This document shows, piece after piece, positions 29,094 to 37,085 of a stretch of DNA of 44,537 nt. A model generated the notes under the pieces. The model made no database searches. It was not told the DNA's origin and saw only the letters and a program-made list of their open reading frames with translations. The position numbers and the translations under genes are program-made. Every line of letters begins with the position of its first letter. Position 1 is the stretch's first letter. The stretch is from Asticcacaulis aquaticus (GTDB taxonomy: Bacteria; Pseudomonadota; Alphaproteobacteria; Caulobacterales; Caulobacteraceae). The stretch lies in assembly GCF_028550415.1 (NCBI RefSeq), contig NZ_JAQQKX010000022.1:1-44537 (forward strand), written 5' to 3'.

Positions 29094-29771
29094 ATGTCGA
29101 ACCTTACCCCCGTTCTGCGTCTCGCCGCTCTCGCCCTCACCGGCCTGCCGCTGCTCGCCGCCTGCGCCAGCGACAACAGCGCGAAGCTGGAAGCGCCCCT
29201 GCCGACCGAGGCCTACACCCTTCAGGCCCAGTCGCGCAGCGAAGCCATCCACCTCAAGATCAATCCGAAGGGCTTTTCGGAAAATCAGCGCCGCGCGCTG
29301 GATCAGATCGCCCGCCGCGCCAGCTGGGACAGCGGCGAAGCCGTCGATGTCCGCATCGTGACCGCCAACGGCCCCGACGCCGTGCGCGCGGGATATGCCG
29401 TGCGCGACTACCTGATGCAGCATCAGGTCGAGGCCCACGTCATCGGCTATTCGACCGCCGAGGCCCAGCCCGCCGACGTCGTCAGCATCAGCCTGGTCGA
29501 ATACCGCGCCGACATTCCGCAATGCGGGCAGAGCTGGGAAAATCTGGGTCGCACCGGCGGCAACAAGGCCTACAAGAATTTCGGCTGCTCCATCACCGCC
29601 AATCTGGCGGCGCAGGTCGCCGATCCGCGCGACCTGGCCGGACCGCAAACCGCCACCCCGGCGGATGCCGGACGCCGCGCCGTCGTCATCGACAAGTACC
29701 GCAAGGGTGAAGTGACCTCGGCCGCCGACAACGAAGCGGCCAAGGGCACCATCTCCGACGCCATCAAGTGA
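29094..29771 (+). CDS. cpaD: Pilus assembly lipoprotein CpaD
   Basis: The 225-residue protein has a lipoprotein signal peptide (lipobox LAAC, Cys24). The mature domain has the CpaD features: LKINPKGFSENQRRALDQIA, HVIGYSTAEAQPADVVSISLVEYRA and the CxxxW...NFGCSITANLAAQVADPRDL segment (CGQSWENL, then NFGCSI). CpaD is an outer-membrane-associated partner of the secretin in Caulobacter-type Tad systems. It is nine bases after cpaC and eight before cpaE, inside one operon. Confidence 0.94.
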   Translation: MSNLTPVLRLAALALTGLPLLAACASDNSAKLEAPLPTEAYTLQAQSRSEAIHLKINPKGFSENQRRALDQIARRASWDSGEAVDVRIVTANGPDAVRAGYAVRDYLMQHQVEAHVIGYSTAEAQPADVVSISLVEYRADIPQCGQSWENLGRTGGNKAYKNFGCSITANLAAQVADPRDLAGPQTATPADAGRRAVVIDKYRKGEVTSAADNEAAKGTISDAIK

Positions 29772-29779
29772 GCCATAGC

Positions 29780-31213
29780 ATGTCCTCCATCGCTACCCAG
29801 CACGATCCTTTCGACAGTTTCGACGACGCGGACGACGGCTTCACGCAGGACTATGGTCCGGTGGGCGGCGATCCCCTCGATCTCGACGATCCGTTCAGCG
29901 ACCTTGAGCCGCTCAACGCGCGCGACGGCACCGCGCGTCAGGCCCTGACGCCCGCAGCTCTGGTCCATAACGAGCCGCCGGCCCTGCCGGACGGCTTCGG
30001 CGGCGACACACTGGGCTCGGTCTCGATCCCGCGCATCGCCATCCACTTCTTCCCCAACGGCGACAGCACGCTGCAGGCCTGCGATACCGCGGCGCTGGAT
30101 CGCCGCATGGCCCGCGCCCAGTCGCTGGTTCGCCGCGGCGGCATCGAAGAGGCCATCACCGTCTATCGTCAGGAACCGACGCCGTCGCTTATCCTCGTCG
30201 AGAGCGATGCGCGTGGCCGCGACCTGCTCGACCAGCTGGGACAACTGGCCGAGGTCTGCGACGCCAATACCAAGGTCGTCGTCATCGGTCAGCACAACGA
30301 CATCTCGCTGTTCCGCGAACTGATGCGACAGGGCGTGTCCGACTACATGGTCGCCCCGGTGCAGCCCCTGCAACTGATCAAGGTCATCTCGACCCTGTTC
30401 AACGATCCGGAAACCCCGTTCGTCGGTCGCGCCATCGCCTTCATCGGCGCGCGCGGCGGCGCAGGCTCCTCGGTTCTGGCGCACAATTTCGCCCACGCCC
30501 TGTCCGAAACCATGCAGGCCAATACGGTCATCGCCGACTACGACCTGCCCTTCGGCACCGCCGGGCTCGACTTCAATCAGGACCCGATGCAGGGCATGGC
30601 CGACGCGCTCAACGAGCCCGACCGTCTCGACCCGGTCCTGCTCGACCGTATGCTGACGCGCTGCACGGAGCGCCTGTCGCTGTTCTCGGCCCCGGCCTCG
30701 CTCGATCAGGACTATCTGGCCGACGACGACGCCTTCGAGGAAGTGACGCGCAAGGTGCGTTCGGTCGCGCCGTTCATCGTCATGGACCTGCCGCACGTCT
30801 GGACACCGTGGCTGAAAAAGTGCCTGATCGCCGCCGACGAGGTGGTCATCGTGGCGACGCCGGACCTCGCCTCCCTGCGCAACGCCAAGAACATGATCGA
30901 GCTGCTGAAGTCGTTCCGCCCGAACGACACGCCGCCGCGCATCGTGCTGAACCAGACCGACATGCCGGGCCGCCCGGAAATCCCGCTCAAGGACTTCACC
31001 GCCGCCCTGGGCATGGAGCCCGTCTGCGCCATCGGTTTCGACCCGAAAACCTTCGGTCAGGCCGCCAATAACGGTCAGATGCTGGCCGAATGCGCCCCGG
31101 CGTCGAAGGCGCACGAGGCCCTGATGACCCTGACAGCGGCGATCACCGGTCGCGTCGCGGAGCCGTCCAAAAAACAGTCGAAATCGCTGCTCGGTAAACT
31201 TTTCAAGAAGTGA
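29780..31213 (+). CDS. cpaE: Tad pilus localisation ATPase-like protein CpaE/TadZ
   Basis: From ATG at 29780 the protein has 477 residues (a GTG at 29768 overlapping cpaD is an alternative). An acidic N-terminal stretch (DDADDGF) is followed by a receiver-like domain (about 90-205; LILVESDARG, then DYMVAPVQP) and a MinD/ParA-like domain from about 215. The P-loop region reads GARGGAGSSVLAHN (223-236): both lysines of the ParA deviant Walker A motif (KGGxGKS/T) are missing. TadZ/CpaE proteins are known to have atypical P-loops and position the pilus machine at the cell pole. The end has a basic tail. Confidence 0.94.
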   Translation: MSSIATQHDPFDSFDDADDGFTQDYGPVGGDPLDLDDPFSDLEPLNARDGTARQALTPAALVHNEPPALPDGFGGDTLGSVSIPRIAIHFFPNGDSTLQACDTAALDRRMARAQSLVRRGGIEEAITVYRQEPTPSLILVESDARGRDLLDQLGQLAEVCDANTKVVVIGQHNDISLFRELMRQGVSDYMVAPVQPLQLIKVISTLFNDPETPFVGRAIAFIGARGGAGSSVLAHNFAHALSETMQANTVIADYDLPFGTAGLDFNQDPMQGMADALNEPDRLDPVLLDRMLTRCTERLSLFSAPASLDQDYLADDDAFEEVTRKVRSVAPFIVMDLPHVWTPWLKKCLIAADEVVIVATPDLASLRNAKNMIELLKSFRPNDTPPRIVLNQTDMPGRPEIPLKDFTAALGMEPVCAIGFDPKTFGQAANNGQMLAECAPASKAHEALMTLTAAITGRVAEPSKKQSKSLLGKLFKK

Positions 31214-31221
31214 GACCCTAA

Positions 31222-32862
31222 GTGTTCGGAAAGCGCCCTACGGATTCCAGCGGCAAGCCCATCGGTCTTGCCGACGCCCCCCGCCCCGCCCCCACGGCGG
31301 GTGCGCAGGCGGCCGCTCAGGTGCGCCCGCAGGCCCTCAGCGGTGCCACGCCCGCCGCTTCGGCAAAACCGCAACAGCTCAAAGGGGCCCCGCCGCCCGC
31401 AGCCAAGCCGAACGCCGACATCGCGACTCGCCCTCAGGGGCAGTCTCTGGGCATGGGGCACGACGCCAAGGCCGAGCCCGCGGTCGAACGCCGCACCGAT
31501 AAGGGCGCAGCCAAGGGTAATGGCAAGCTGTCGTCCGGCATCGACCAGATGCACAAGGCGCAGGCCGTCACCGAGATCGTCCGCGAACAGTCCGACTACT
31601 ACCACGCCACCAAGACCGCGATCTTCAACGCGTTGCTGAACACCATCGACCTGTCGCAACTGGCCCAGCTGGACCAGAAGGCGGCGTCGGAGGAAATCCG
31701 CGACATCGTCGCCGAACTGGTGACGATCAAGAACGTGTCCATGTCGGTCGTCGAACAGGACGCCCTGGTTCAGGACATCATCAACGACGTCCTCGGCTAC
31801 GGCCCGCTGGAGCCGCTGCTGGCCCGCGACGACATCGCCGACATCATGGTCAACGGCGCGGGCCGCGTCTTCATCGAAGTCGGCGGCAAGGTGCAGCTGA
31901 CCAATGTCCGTTTCCGCGACAACGGCCAGCTGATGAACATCTGTCAGCGCATCGTGTCGCAGGTCGGCCGCCGCGTCGACGAAAGCTCACCGATCTGCGA
32001 CGCCCGTCTGCCCGACGGGTCGCGCGTCAACGTCATCGCGCCGCCGCTGGCGCTGGACGGCCCGACGCTCACCATCCGTAAGTTCAAAAAGGACAAGCTG
32101 ACCATGCGCAATCTGGTGGAGTTCAACTCCATCAGCCCGGAAGGGGCGCGCGTCCTCGGCGTCATCGGCGCCTCGCGCTGCAACGTCCTGATCTCCGGCG
32201 GTACGGGTTCGGGCAAGACGACCCTGCTCAACACCCTGACCGCCTTCATCGACCCGACCGAGCGCGTCATCACCTGCGAAGACGCCGCCGAACTGCAATT
32301 GCAGCAGCCGCACGTCGTGCGTCTGGAAACCCGTCCGCCGAATCTGGAAGGACAAGGCGCGATCACCATGCGCGATCTCGTCAAGAACTGTCTGCGGATG
32401 CGTCCCGAGCGCATCATCGTCGGCGAAGTCCGCGGCCCGGAGGCCTTCGACCTCCTTCAGGCCATGAACACCGGCCACGACGGCTCGATGGGCACGTTGC
32501 ACGCCAACTCGCCGCGCGAAGCCGTGTCGCGTCTGGAATCGATGATCACCATGGGCGGCTACGGCCTGCCGTCGCGCACCATCCGCGAAATGATCGTCGG
32601 CTCGATCGACATCATCGTTCAGGCAGCGCGTCTGCGCGACGGTTCACGCCGCATCACCCACATCACCGAAGTCCTCGGCCTCGAAGGCGACGTCATCATC
32701 ACGCAGGACCTGTTCCTGTACGAGATCGAAGGCGAAAGCAAGGACGGCAAGATCATCGGCCGTCACCGCTCGACCGGCATCGGTCGTCCGCGCTTCTGGG
32801 ACCGCGCCAAATATTACGGCCTTGAGCGTGAGCTGGCCGAAGCGCTCGACGCGTCGGAGTAG
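31222..32862 (+). CDS. cpaF: Tad pilus assembly/secretion ATPase CpaF/TadA
   Basis: The 546-residue protein begins with GTG nine bases after cpaE. Residues 1-115 are a Pro/Ala-rich disordered leader. The secretion ATPase core follows: [22 protein letters not shown], then Walker [10 protein letters not shown] (326-334), an Asp box ([12 protein letters not shown]), the His-box region [17 protein letters not shown] and a Walker B-type [13 protein letters not shown]. This hexameric cytoplasmic ATPase powers pilus polymerisation, and in Tad systems may also drive retraction, with TadB and TadC as its membrane platform. Confidence 0.96.
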
Positions 32863-32868
32863 TTCCAT

Positions 32869-33849
32869 ATGACCTTCGTTCTTATCGCGTTTCTGAGCTT
32901 CGTCATCATCGCCTCGATCGGCTTTGTCCTGACCAGCGGTAACAGCGCGTCCGACGTCGCTGCCAAGCGCGCCCAGGCCATCGTCGTCAGTACGCCCAAT
33001 GCCCGCCGCAAGGGCGGCAAGGCCCAGACCGCCAAGACCCCCGAAGAACGCCGCAAGCAGATCCTGCTGCAACTGAAGGAATCCGAACGCCGCGACCGCA
33101 AGGCGCGTCTGTCTCTGGCCGCCCGCATGCTGCACGCCGGTCTGAGCCCCGACGTCAAGAAGTTCTGGATCATCTCGATCGCCATGGGCGTCTTCGCGGC
33201 CCTGATCGGGTTTCTGGTCAGCCAGAATCCGTTCATCGCATTGGGAGCCGCCTTCGTCTTCGCCTACGGCATACCGCGCTGGTTCCTCGGCACCCTGGCC
33301 AAGGGCCGTATCAACAAGTTCACCGCCCTGTTTCCCGACGCCATGGATATTCTGGTGCGCGGCATCAAGTCGGGCCTGCCGGTCAATGACGGGCTGAAGA
33401 TCATCGCGCGCGAAATGGGCAAGCCACTGGGGCCGGAGTTCCAGCGCCTCAATGAGAACGTCGCCATCGGCATGGCGCTGGACGGCGCATTGGAAAAGAT
33501 GTGCGAGCGCATGCCAACGTCCGAACTGCGCTTTTTCACCATCGTCATCGCCATTCAGGCCAAGACGGGCGGCAACCTGGCCGAAGCGCTGGGCAACCTG
33601 TCGAACGTCCTGCGCGCCCGCCGGATGATGCGCGAAAAGATCAAGGCCCTGTCGTCCGAAGCCATTGCCTCGGCCTCGATCATCGGCGTCCTGCCGCCGG
33701 GCGTCGGCACCATGATCTCGCTGGTCAATCCCGGCTATATCGGCCCGATGTTCACCGACCCGCGCGGCAATTTCATGCTGATGGGCGGCGCGATATGGAT
33801 GCTGCTCGGCATCCTGATGATGCGCAAGATGATCAACTTCAAGTTCTAG
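32869..33849 (+). CDS. tadB: Tad pilus inner-membrane platform protein TadB (CpaG)
   Basis: The 326-residue protein has an N-terminal membrane segment (about 3-22), a basic cytoplasmic stretch (RRKGGKAQTAKTPEERRKQ), two further helices (about 105-150) and a type II secretion F domain: FPDAMDILVRGIKSGLPVNDGL, then FTIVIAIQAKTGGNLAEALGNL. It ends with membrane helices. TadB and TadC together form the platform that couples the ATPase to the pilus. It lies six bases after cpaF and 12 before tadC. Confidence 0.94.
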   Translation: MTFVLIAFLSFVIIASIGFVLTSGNSASDVAAKRAQAIVVSTPNARRKGGKAQTAKTPEERRKQILLQLKESERRDRKARLSLAARMLHAGLSPDVKKFWIISIAMGVFAALIGFLVSQNPFIALGAAFVFAYGIPRWFLGTLAKGRINKFTALFPDAMDILVRGIKSGLPVNDGLKIIAREMGKPLGPEFQRLNENVAIGMALDGALEKMCERMPTSELRFFTIVIAIQAKTGGNLAEALGNLSNVLRARRMMREKIKALSSEAIASASIIGVLPPGVGTMISLVNPGYIGPMFTDPRGNFMLMGGAIWMLLGILMMRKMINFKF

Positions 33850-33861
33850 GGTGATATCCAG

Positions 33862-34839
33862 ATGAGAGACCTCGCCCTGTTCATTCTCGATCCGGTCAAT
33901 CTGATGACGGGTCTCGTGGCCCTGTTCGTCTTCTTCACGGCCATGACGCTGATGAAGTCGGTGACCTCCGGCGACCAGCTCGACAAGCGCATGAAGGCCG
34001 TGGCCGCCCGCCGCGACGAACTGCGCCGCCAGTCGCGTCAGGGCATCGTCCAGCCCGGCGCCAACAGCGGGCTGCGTCACACCGACGAAGGCCTGTACAA
34101 GCGTATCGTCGAAAAACTGAACCTGAAAACCCTGCTCGAAGACCCCAAGGTCGTCGACAAGCTGGCCATGGCCGGTTACCGCGGCCCCAAGCCCGTCTCG
34201 ACCTTCTACTTCTTCCGCTTCCTGATGCCCTTCGTGCTGGGGGCCTTCACCACCTTCTACATCTTCGTGGTCAACGATTTCGGTCAGCCGACCAATATCA
34301 AGATCCTGATCTGCGTCGGCATGTTCGTGGCCGGTTACTACGCGCCGAACCTCTATATCTCCAACATGGCATCGAAGCGCCGCGCCTCGATCATCGCCGC
34401 CTTCCCCGATGCGCTCGACCTGCTGCTGATCTGCGTGGAATCGGGCATGTCGATCGAAGCCGCCATCAACAAGGTGTCGCAGGAAATCGGCTCGGCCTCG
34501 ATCGAGCTGGCCGAGGAAATGTCGCTGCTGGTCGCCGAACTGTCCTATCTGCCCGAACGCCGCATGGCCTACGAAGGTCTGGCGCGCCGGACCAATCACC
34601 CCGGCATCAAGGCCGTCTGCACGGCCATGATTCAGGCCGAAAAGTACGGTACGCCGCTTGGTACGGCGCTACGCGTCATGGCCAAGGAAAACCGCGAACT
34701 GCGCCTGTCCGCCGCCGAAAAGAAGGCCGCCGCCCTGCCGGCGCAGCTCACCGTGCCGATGATCGTCTTCTTCCTGCCGGTGCTGTTCGTCGTCATCCTC
34801 GGCCCGGCGATCCTCAATGTGATGGACATGAAGAAGTAG
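33862..34839 (+). CDS. tadC: Tad pilus inner-membrane platform protein TadC (CpaH)
   Basis: The 325-residue protein has N-terminal (about 10-30) and central helix pairs (about 115-165) and a type II secretion F domain: FPDALDLLLICVESGMSIEAAI, then HPGIKAVCTAMIQAEKYGTPLGTAL, and a C-terminal helix (PMIVFFLPVLFVVILGPAIL). It is the last gene of the cpa/tad operon. The next gene begins 97 bases later and is unrelated. Confidence 0.94.
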   Translation: MRDLALFILDPVNLMTGLVALFVFFTAMTLMKSVTSGDQLDKRMKAVAARRDELRRQSRQGIVQPGANSGLRHTDEGLYKRIVEKLNLKTLLEDPKVVDKLAMAGYRGPKPVSTFYFFRFLMPFVLGAFTTFYIFVVNDFGQPTNIKILICVGMFVAGYYAPNLYISNMASKRRASIIAAFPDALDLLLICVESGMSIEAAINKVSQEIGSASIELAEEMSLLVAELSYLPERRMAYEGLARRTNHPGIKAVCTAMIQAEKYGTPLGTALRVMAKENRELRLSAAEKKAAALPAQLTVPMIVFFLPVLFVVILGPAILNVMDMKK

Positions 34840-34936
34840 GCCGCTCCGCCTCCCGTCAGGTGGGGTAGCTTGCCTCAACGAAAAAGAACATATATAGAAC
34901 TTAAGCCCGGTTTGTCCGTTCCGAGGTTTTCAGTAT

Positions 34937-37072
34937 ATGCGTCCTTTTCCCGTCCTGCCGCCCACCTATTATCATTCCCATTTCATGGAAATGCTGACCT
35001 TTGTGCGCGAGGTCTACGGCGCTCTGCTCGGCGACGCGGAAACAGCGTTTCTGAGCGCGTTCGAGGCCCTGAGTCCGGAAGCGCAGTGCGTCTATATCCG
35101 CATGTCGAACCGCAAGCGCGCCATCTTTACGCGCGCCGATCTCGACTACAGCGAAATCCATCATATCGATCTCAGCCTGCAGGAGCTGCACGAACAGGGT
35201 TTCGTGCGCGGCCTCAGTCCCGACGACTATCGCACCTGCCTTGACGGCCTGACCCGCCCGGCACTGACCGATCTGGCACGTGCCTACGAGATAGAGGTGA
35301 AATCGACCTGGCCCAAGGCGCGCCTGTGCGATCACCTGCACGGGCAACTGAGCTTTGAGGATTTTCTCGCGGCGCTCGCCGATACCCCACGCTTTTTGCC
35401 CGCGCATCGCGAGACGGTCGGCTTTCTGCTCTACCTCTATTTCGGCAAGCTGAGCGGCAATCTGCTCGGCTTCACCCTGCGCGACCTCGGCGTGGTGCAG
35501 GTGCGCCAGAAGGACAGCTATCAGGCGCGGTTCATCAGCCGCGAAGAGGCGCTGGGCGGCTATGCCTATACGCGGCAACTGAGGGCGCTGAAAGGCGCAA
35601 CGCCAAAGGCCTATCTGGCGGCTGCCGATGTCGTAACCGACCTGCCCCCGGCGACGACCGAGTTTACGCAAGGCCTGCGCGACAAGTTGCTGCACGATCT
35701 GGGGCGCTTTTTCGAACGGCAGAAAGACAACGAACGGGCGGTGGAATTCTACGCGCAGTCGGGGCTGTTCGAAAGCCAGGAACGCGTGGTGCGGATGCTC
35801 TATGCCCAGGACGATCACGACCGCGCCCGGACCCTGCTGGAGGCCATGCTCGACGCCCCGGTCCACGACGAAGCCTTCATCTTCGCCGACGACTTCTACC
35901 GCCGTAAGTTCAACGGCAAGCGCACCAGCGTCTTCACCGACCTGCTGCGTGACGGGCCCCTGATCGAGGCCGACGATCTTTATCGCGGCCTGCCGGAACT
36001 GGCCGCCGCCCGCCATTACGAAGCGCAGGGTTTTGACGTCCACCACGTCGAGAACGGCCTGTGGCCCGCCCTGTTCGGCCTGTTGTTCTGGGATGAACTG
36101 TTCGAATCCGAAGGCGCTTTATCGTCAGGCTTCGACCGCCTGCCCGTTGCCCTGCGCGACCGGACCTTTCAGCATAAATTCGCCGAGGCCATCACGCAAA
36201 AACTGGCCCTCATAGAACGCGGTGACGCGACTGAGATAATTCTGGATAAATGGAATCGTCACGGAGCCGAGGAAAATGGCGTCTTCTACGGCTGGCCCGG
36301 GCTGGGCGACCTGATCGCCGCCTTCCTGTCCGTGGCCCCGCCCCTATCGGTGCGGCAGGTGCTGGAGGCCATGACGCAGGATTTCCATGGCTTGCGCGAC
36401 GGCTTCCCCGACCTGCTCCTGATGGGGCCGGATGGCGTGCACTTCGTCGAGGTCAAGGGCGACGGGGATCAGGTTCGTCGCCATCAGCTCGCGCGTCTGA
36501 ACCTGCTGAAAACCGCCGGGTTCGCCGTCGATATCGCGCGGGTCACCTTCGTGCCCGACCCCGATCAGATCTATGTCGTGGTCGACATCGAGACCACCGG
36601 CGGGCGGTCGCAGTCCGAACGCGTGACCGAGATCGGCGCGGTGAAGATTCAGCGCGGCGAAATCATCGACACCTGGCAAACCCTGATCAATCCTGAACGC
36701 CGCATCCCGGCCTTCATTACCGAGTTGACTGGCATCACCAATGCCATGGTCAGGGACGCACCGGTCTTCGCCGATATCGCCGACGATTTTGCCGCCTTCA
36801 TGAAGGGCGGCGTCTTCGTCGCGCACAACGTCAATTTCGACTACGGGTTTCTGTCGCAGGAATTCAGGGGGCTGGAGCGCCCGTTCCGCTATCCGAAACT
36901 GTGCACGGTCGCTTCGATGCGGAAACATTTCCCCGGTCTTGCCGCCTATGGGCTGAAGCCGCTATCGCGCGAATTCAATATCGATCTGAGAAATCACCAC
37001 CGGGCGATGTCGGATGCTTTAGCTGCGGCAGAGCTACTCAGGATGGTGAATGCAAAAAGGGCCGGGAACTAA
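34937..37072 (+). CDS. FAN1-like VRR-NUC nuclease fused to a DnaQ-like DEDDh exonuclease
   Basis: The 711-residue protein joins two nucleases. Residues 1-540 resemble FAN1: a SAP-like segment (LTRPALTDLARAY, about 105-117), a helical TPR-like middle (250-345), and a VRR-NUC domain with HHVENGLWPALFGLLFWDELF (Glu372), GFPDLLLM (Asp492) and FVEVKG (Glu505, Lys507), the PD-(D/E)XK set. Residues 545-705 are an epsilon-type 3'-5' exonuclease: DIETTG (Asp550, Glu552), HNVNFDYGFL (Asp635), NHHRAMSDALAA (His688, Asp693). FAN1 enzymes are structure-specific nucleases of interstrand-crosslink repair. The fusion would add a proofreading-type exonuclease. All catalytic residues look intact. GAGG precedes the ATG. 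The stop codon lies in the loop of the terminator. Confidence 0.9.
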   Translation: MRPFPVLPPTYYHSHFMEMLTFVREVYGALLGDAETAFLSAFEALSPEAQCVYIRMSNRKRAIFTRADLDYSEIHHIDLSLQELHEQGFVRGLSPDDYRTCLDGLTRPALTDLARAYEIEVKSTWPKARLCDHLHGQLSFEDFLAALADTPRFLPAHRETVGFLLYLYFGKLSGNLLGFTLRDLGVVQVRQKDSYQARFISREEALGGYAYTRQLRALKGATPKAYLAAADVVTDLPPATTEFTQGLRDKLLHDLGRFFERQKDNERAVEFYAQSGLFESQERVVRMLYAQDDHDRARTLLEAMLDAPVHDEAFIFADDFYRRKFNGKRTSVFTDLLRDGPLIEADDLYRGLPELAAARHYEAQGFDVHHVENGLWPALFGLLFWDELFESEGALSSGFDRLPVALRDRTFQHKFAEAITQKLALIERGDATEIILDKWNRHGAEENGVFYGWPGLGDLIAAFLSVAPPLSVRQVLEAMTQDFHGLRDGFPDLLLMGPDGVHFVEVKGDGDQVRRHQLARLNLLKTAGFAVDIARVTFVPDPDQIYVVVDIETTGGRSQSERVTEIGAVKIQRGEIIDTWQTLINPERRIPAFITELTGITNAMVRDAPVFADIADDFAAFMKGGVFVAHNVNFDYGFLSQEFRGLERPFRYPKLCTVASMRKHFPGLAAYGLKPLSREFNIDLRNHHRAMSDALAAAELLRMVNAKRAGN

Positions 37073-37085
37073 TCCCGGCCCTTTT
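37054..37085. terminator. Bidirectional terminator between the nuclease fusion and the M3 peptidase
   Basis: The stem AAAAGGGCCGGGA (37055-37067) pairs with TCCCGGCCCTTTT (37073-37085), with A and T runs on both sides, so it can work on either strand. The loop contains the TAA stop (37070-37072) of the plus-strand gene. Confidence 0.92.

Follow-up and report, generated by a model that had tools for sequence, protein, structure and literature searches.

A FAN1-type nuclease joined to a DEDDh exonuclease in Asticcacaulis aquaticus, a predicted member of the SOS regulon

Introduction

What would a structure-specific nuclease of the FAN1 family do with a 3' to 5' exonuclease attached to its C-terminus? 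The question is raised by a gene of the alphaproteobacterium Asticcacaulis aquaticus on contig NZ_JAQQKX010000022.1 (assembly GCF_028550415.1), whose positions 1 to 44,537, the whole stretch of DNA that we analysed, are called the window below. FAN1 incises 5' flaps a few bases beyond the branch, and after this first cut it shows 5' to 3' exonuclease activity; it prefers 5' flaps and leaves Holliday junctions uncut (available text of PMC4103454). Human FAN1 is tied, in the abstracts, to crosslink repair, kidney disease and the onset of Huntington's disease, and the cellular role of bacterial FAN1 is hardly described in those parts of the literature that we examined. We propose that the fusion is probably, if by no means certainly, an SOS-induced two-step DNA repair nuclease, which would incise near a lesion and then resect from the new 3' end.

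Results

Two intact nuclease centres on one chain

The open reading frame (ORF) begins with ATG and runs for 711 codons with no internal stop. Its product consists of a complete FAN1 nuclease (residues ~5-537), a link of about five residues and a DEDDh exonuclease (545-706). The N-terminal FAN1_HTH domain (PF21315; 65.2 bits, cut-off 27), the VRR_NUC domain (PF08774; 51.5 bits, cut-off 23.8) and the RNase_T domain over residues 547-701 (7.2e-37) all exceed their curated Pfam cut-offs, and the window protein has the FAN1 fold over the whole FAN1 chain. Pfam gave no SAP match at E <= 1; the structural fold alignment covers the SAP region. In the AlphaFold2 model (mean pLDDT 91.4, pTM 0.81) the junction connects the strand that closes the FAN1 part (530-539) to the one that opens the exonuclease (545-553). 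A PHROGs search with the fusion returned partial matches only, each to one domain or the other.

A first-pass annotation of this DNA had placed an intact VRR-NUC centre and an intact DnaQ centre on one chain, and our analysis bears this out. All nine catalytic residues that it named are present, and they are invariant both in an alignment of 20 fusions and in an alignment of 70 chosen fusions with 36-86% identity to the window protein; among the 80 named loci they are gapped only in L144 and L145, where the gene is truncated by a contig end. Four of them (E372, D492, E505 and K507) form the FAN1 centre and are common to 49/49 fused and 14/14 exonuclease-less FAN1 rows. The metal ligands of Pseudomonas aeruginosa FAN1 (PaFAN1) and their human counterparts, one Glu plus the PD...ExK residues (available text of PMC4348246), are the same set. 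The other five (D550, E552, D635, H688 and D693) fit the DEDDh pattern, with the His a few residues ahead of the last Asp. Fusions of VRR-NUC to RNase_T also occur in other genomes, as the annotation had suggested could be looked for: we found 430 homologous proteins, and all 120 of those listed, to which the domain check was applied, carry the same three Pfam domains.

Could a sequencing error have joined two genes? No stop or frameshift was found near codon 543, GC3 is similar on both sides of the junction (0.783 before, 0.754 after), and the stretch 535-549 is 15 residues long in 70/70 aligned fusions. Because relatives as distant as 36% identity share the junction, a sequencing error or false gene join is excluded. 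Two copies elsewhere look damaged: one in a gammaproteobacterial genome (G454), matched from residue 105 only, and one in another Asticcacaulis (L098 in G018), which near residue 60 breaks into two frames that overlap.

The earlier statement that described bacterial FAN1 proteins lack the second domain agrees with the available text of PMC4103454 and PMC4348246, and with 34/398 phylum genomes in which the match to an exonuclease-less FAN1 ends between residues 517 and 548. PaFAN1 (PDB 4r89, 4r8a, 5y7g and 5y7q) likewise ends at VRR-NUC, whereas the fusion continues into the exonuclease. Human FAN1 has a UBZ domain (available text of PMC9635880), and the human chains matched in the PDB stop after VRR-NUC, without an exonuclease domain.

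LexA boxes upstream of the fusion genes

The start codon is preceded by a GAAC-N7-GAAC box, GAACATATATAGAAC (Table 1). The alphaproteobacterial LexA motif is GTTC-N7-GTTC (available text of PMC8565304). As one box in 44.5 kb is unremarkable against the 1.83 expected, the case for SOS control rests on position and conservation. Counts are given for 60 distinct alphaproteobacterial fusion loci (six repeated records removed) over the zone from -200 to +20. The box occurs there in 57/60, compared with 0-3 of 60 for control spacers of 3-6 and 8-12 and with 6/373 control windows taken ahead of the other ORFs that these loci contain. The boxless three are L145, L205 (just 17 bp of upstream sequence) and L150, in which the box stands before the dinB of a dinB-fusion pair. 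When one mismatch was allowed, the motif appeared in ~12% of control windows and was uninformative. The 4.0 Mb genome of A. aquaticus itself holds 101 GAAC-N7-GAAC sites versus 49 for the reversed control; two of them (219587 and 219613) are directly upstream of lexA (match from C1:219691), and another lies 137 bp ahead of the match to recA.

In Verrucomicrobiota the LexA motif is TGTTC-N4-GAACA, and in Gammaproteobacteria CTGT-N8-ACAG. The first was found upstream of 5/8 verrucomicrobial fusions and in 0/269 control windows. One verrucomicrobial genome (G795, ~7 Mb) has seven such sites versus two for the reversed control; of the seven, one starts 26 bp ahead of the match to lexA and another 57 bp ahead of the match to the fusion. 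The second is exact in 7/45 gammaproteobacterial fusions (0-1/45 for other spacers) and present with <= 1 mismatch in 25/45 (1-6/45). Among exonuclease-less FAN1 genes, 3/14 have an exact box. Fusions in three bacterial groups thus tend to carry the LexA motif of their own clade, and with its clade-specific box close to the gene start the window gene is a predicted member of the SOS regulon. Most simply, the gene would have been placed under LexA control independently in each of these groups.

Kinship of the exonuclease part

Among NCBIfam families, PRK07883, a group of DEDD exonucleases, matches the exonuclease part best; its models cover residues 543-704 only and score far under their cut-offs. 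This is the group of the DnaQ-Cho proteins, which carry a GIY-YIG endonuclease; Pfam finds no GIY-YIG domain in the window protein at E <= 1, and the fusion is thus not itself a DnaQ-Cho protein. Of the loci matched by the exonuclease part alone, thirteen have long frames, of 403-534 aa with 213-347 aa C-terminal to the exonuclease. Seven of these were scanned, giving RNase_T in 7/7 and GIY-YIG in 5/7 (one under its cut-off); NCBIfam was run on three, two of which match excinuclease Cho. We assigned the remaining six to the Cho type by frame length and tree position.

In a tree built from 48 exonuclease domains (27 fused, 13 Cho-type, six epsilon-like, plus PolC and DinG) the fused and Cho-type exonucleases fall on one branch (96/82), apart from epsilon-like, PolC and DinG. 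The epsilon-like six form a branch of their own (100/98); support for a group of the fused exonucleases by themselves is weak (77/82), and PolC and DinG, which have long branches, are of uncertain placement. In several sources listed relatives are labelled merely 'exonuclease' or 'DNA polymerase III subunit epsilon'. A replicative epsilon subunit of polymerase III, or a stray proofreader, is excluded by the tree, and the A. aquaticus genome has a separate epsilon-like ORF (C4:219488; L002), which falls among the epsilon-like rows.

Like the fusion, DnaQ-Cho joins an exonuclease, the nearest kin that we found, to an incising endonuclease, and a role of incising and then resecting has been proposed for it (available text of PMC1564403). 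It differs in that its endonuclease is GIY-YIG rather than PD-(D/E)XK and its exonuclease is N-terminal rather than C-terminal. Related DEDDh modules appear, then, to be joined to repair endonucleases of two unrelated kinds, C-terminally in one and N-terminally in the other. In Staphylococcus aureus DinG (PDB 8zef and 9ii8) an N-terminal DEDDh exonuclease is joined to a helicase, not to a nuclease. The DEDDh enzymes MrfB and DinG act in mitomycin C repair (available text of PMC10889028 and PMC12345164). MrfB of Bacillus subtilis resembles the fusion in combining a DEDDh exonuclease with a TPR region in such repair; it differs in being a separate protein that partners the helicase MrfA, and VRR-NUC is not mentioned in the available text of PMC10889028.

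Might the exonuclease act on RNA, with R-loops or RNA primers at stalled forks as the structures that the protein resolves? Some enzymes with a DEDDh fold, RNase T and ERI1 for example, do act on RNA, and B. subtilis DinG has been termed an exo(ribo)nuclease (available text of PMC12525004). The best structural matches of the exonuclease part, however, are the DNA enzymes DinG, PolC and epsilon, and LexA control indicates DNA damage, which leaves an RNA substrate very unlikely.

Distribution and tree of the FAN1 part

The fusion is present in 23/25 Asticcacaulis genomes, our own included (one is split over contig ends and one has a broken frame), in 0/12 other genomes of the family and in 3/24 others of the order. 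Wider samples gave 4/385 genomes for the class, 11/398 for the phylum and 2/194 for the phylum of G795 (Verrucomicrobiales). The gene is both widespread and patchy: carriers span Alphaproteobacteria, Gammaproteobacteria and Verrucomicrobiota, among them Asticcacaulis, Bradyrhizobium, Mesorhizobium, Rhodomicrobium, Hellea, Woeseiaceae, Alteromonas, Glaciecola, Pseudoalteromonas, Verrucomicrobiales and Opitutia. No exonuclease-less FAN1 was found in the class sample (E <= 1e-25) or in the G795-phylum sample (1e-24). One genome (G419) has two closely related fusion copies (L108 and L109), far apart, each with its own LexA box.

A patchy distribution would suit an effector of anti-phage defence, and PADLOC models do match the protein, if over the exonuclease part only. 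Stability within one genus and the LexA boxes upstream both argue against such a role, which we consider extremely unlikely.

In the tree built for the FAN1 part, which is unrooted, a single branch (100/100) divides the 49 fusions from the 14 exonuclease-less proteins, a clean split that is compatible with a single fusion event. The gammaproteobacterial Woeseiaceae adjoin relatives of the alphaproteobacterial Hellea (97/89), which suggests that the fusion gene has moved between classes.

Gene neighbourhood

We searched the alphaproteobacterial fusion loci for dinB, which encodes DNA polymerase (Pol) IV, by tblastn with one query. It adjoins the fusion in nine loci, eight of the 60 distinct ones. 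The two genes are convergent and 23-44 bp apart in L110, L146 and L149, and divergent with a LexA box between them in L152, L153 and L161; in L111 (same record as L148) a partial dinB lies downstream. In L150 it lies directly upstream on the same strand, a head-to-tail pair in which the only LexA box precedes dinB. Pfam confirms four of the eight neighbours as IMS-family; in L111 the match is confined to the C-terminal domains. Other neighbours recur inside groups of related loci.

These arrangements bear on two further alternatives. The protein could be a proofreader or end cleaner for SOS polymerases, its exonuclease editing Pol IV 3' termini and its FAN1 part mainly targeting it to gaps and flaps. 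The adjacency of dinB, including the pair in L150, and the DnaQ fold speak for this. Yet the FAN1 catalytic residues are invariant in 70/70 fusions, so a role in targeting only is unlikely; clamp-binding-like patterns recur in <= 4/70 fusions at any one alignment column; and the exonuclease branches apart from epsilon. We accordingly give editing of this kind a low probability. A branch trimmer for recombination or fork restart, with no special link to crosslinks, is somewhat easier to envisage, if still unlikely. Here FAN1 would take 5' flaps, in keeping with its reported preference and its sparing of Holliday junctions (PMC4103454, available text), and the exonuclease would take 3' flaps or displaced 3' ends; a chain that combines the two polarities would fit a branch with two arms, and LexA control would be equally apt for recombination genes. 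Against it stand the kinship of the exonuclease to excision-type nucleases and the recurrence of a polymerase gene as neighbour, though in just 8/60 loci.

Exonuclease-less FAN1 genes have a different neighbour. A helicase gene follows 0-24 bp 3' of them in 8/14 loci, whereas none follows a fusion (0/119, repeats included); the one such helicase scanned has DEAD_2 and Helicase_C_2 domains. In L123, L125-L128 and L130-L132 the gene directly after FAN1 looks like a DinG/XPD-type helicase, and the two likely form an operon.

In the window the fusion gene seems to stand alone. The upstream gene on the same strand ends 97 bp before it. Judged from the translations, that gene is TadC-like and the convergent gene downstream M3-peptidase-like, and 29768-34839 (+) reads like a Tad/Flp pilus cluster with CpaE-, CpaF-, TadB- and TadC-like products. 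A promoter scan found no sigma-70-type site, and tRNA and Rfam scans of the window gave no matches. The hairpin at the 3' end of the gene (Table 1) is a palindrome flanked by runs of A and T, fit to terminate both convergent genes; the hairpin count is not significant (one in the region, 2.3 expected from shuffles).

Table 1. Positions of the features of the fusion locus in the window
Feature	Position	Strand	Basis or remark
LexA (SOS) box, GAAC-N7-GAAC	34886..34900	+	36 bp before the start codon; sole exact match in the window
FAN1-DEDDh fusion gene, 711 aa	34937..37072	+	ORF, translation, Pfam, homologues, AlphaFold2 model
FAN1_HTH domain, residues 11-91	34967..35209	+	Pfam PF21315, 5e-18
E372, Glu of the FAN1 centre, N-terminal to the PD...ExK motif	36050..36052	+	
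VRR-NUC domain, residues 428-537, with D492, E505, K507	36218..36547	+	Pfam PF08774, 1.3e-13
Junction, residues 540-544 (PDPDQ)	36554..36568	+	AlphaFold2 secondary structure; constant length in 70/70 rows
DEDDh 3'-5' exonuclease domain, residues 547-701, with D550, E552, D635, H688, D693	36575..37039	+	
Palindromic terminator-like hairpin, 13 pairs	37055..37085		Overlaps the stop codon, precedes the convergent downstream gene

Discussion

Our proposal of an SOS-induced nuclease that incises and then resects can be set out in three steps. The FAN1 part would bind a 5' flap, gap or branch at a site where a bulky lesion or interstrand crosslink has brought replication or excision to a halt and, by analogy with PaFAN1 and human FAN1, would cut the flap-bearing strand a few nucleotides 3' of the branch. 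The DEDDh part, kept near by the five-residue junction, would then take the new 3' end or a neighbouring primer end and shorten it in the 3' to 5' direction until the damage has been reached or passed, so that a gap with a usable 3'-OH remains. This gap a polymerase, SOS or replicative, would refill; some of the neighbours suggest that in places it may be Pol IV (DinB). We infer incision and resection because of homology, their coupling because the junction is short and of constant length, and the setting of DNA damage because LexA boxes precede the gene. The one-protein machine for crosslink or flap processing envisaged by the first-pass annotation has gained support for its repair role from the LexA boxes and dinB neighbours; crosslink or flap processing itself is still a prediction from sequence.

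Several observations weigh against this proposal. An exact box is absent in 38/45 gammaproteobacterial fusions, and 3/8 verrucomicrobial ones have no box; of the motifs used for these two groups, the verrucomicrobial one is backed by the site at the lexA of G795. Adjacency of dinB is limited to 8/60 loci, a raw count, with one copy partial. Five of the eight are named Bradyrhizobium and therefore reflect few independent events. In L110 (G537), which lies outside the aligned sets, an otherwise open frame has Gly at the position equivalent to 552 (DIGTSGG for DIETTGG), so the exonuclease may not be required in every fusion. Finally, the gene is dispensable, as it is missing from 2/25 genomes of the genus and 12/12 others of the family.

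More tentatively, and with less confidence than we place in the proposal itself, the fusion could be seen as an unhook-and-resect enzyme on one chain, under SOS control through each group's LexA motif, in which a rigidly held DEDDh domain passes the 3'-OH on to a polymerase of the SOS response. The FAN1 nuclease, the DEDDh exonuclease and the DinG-type helicase might then be exchangeable parts of one incise-unwind-resect pathway, because DEDDh cassettes are joined to FAN1, Cho and DinG and DinG-type helicase genes follow exonuclease-less FAN1.

We found no description of the fusion, or of LexA control of a FAN1 gene, in the titles and abstract openings of the open-access literature, a scope in which subscription papers mostly do not fall; the available text of PMC12796719 mentions FAN1 solely among its references. 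The component families are known. Within the open-access literature searched, the architecture and the regulation look undescribed, and the fusion is a member of the FAN1 family with a new architecture, not a new kind of system.

Overall, the fusion adds a candidate gene to the SOS response and suggests that incision by FAN1 and 3' resection may be steps of one reaction. A fused, LexA-boxed FAN1 in Asticcacaulis, Bradyrhizobium and Alteromonas makes the role of FAN1 in bacteria directly testable.
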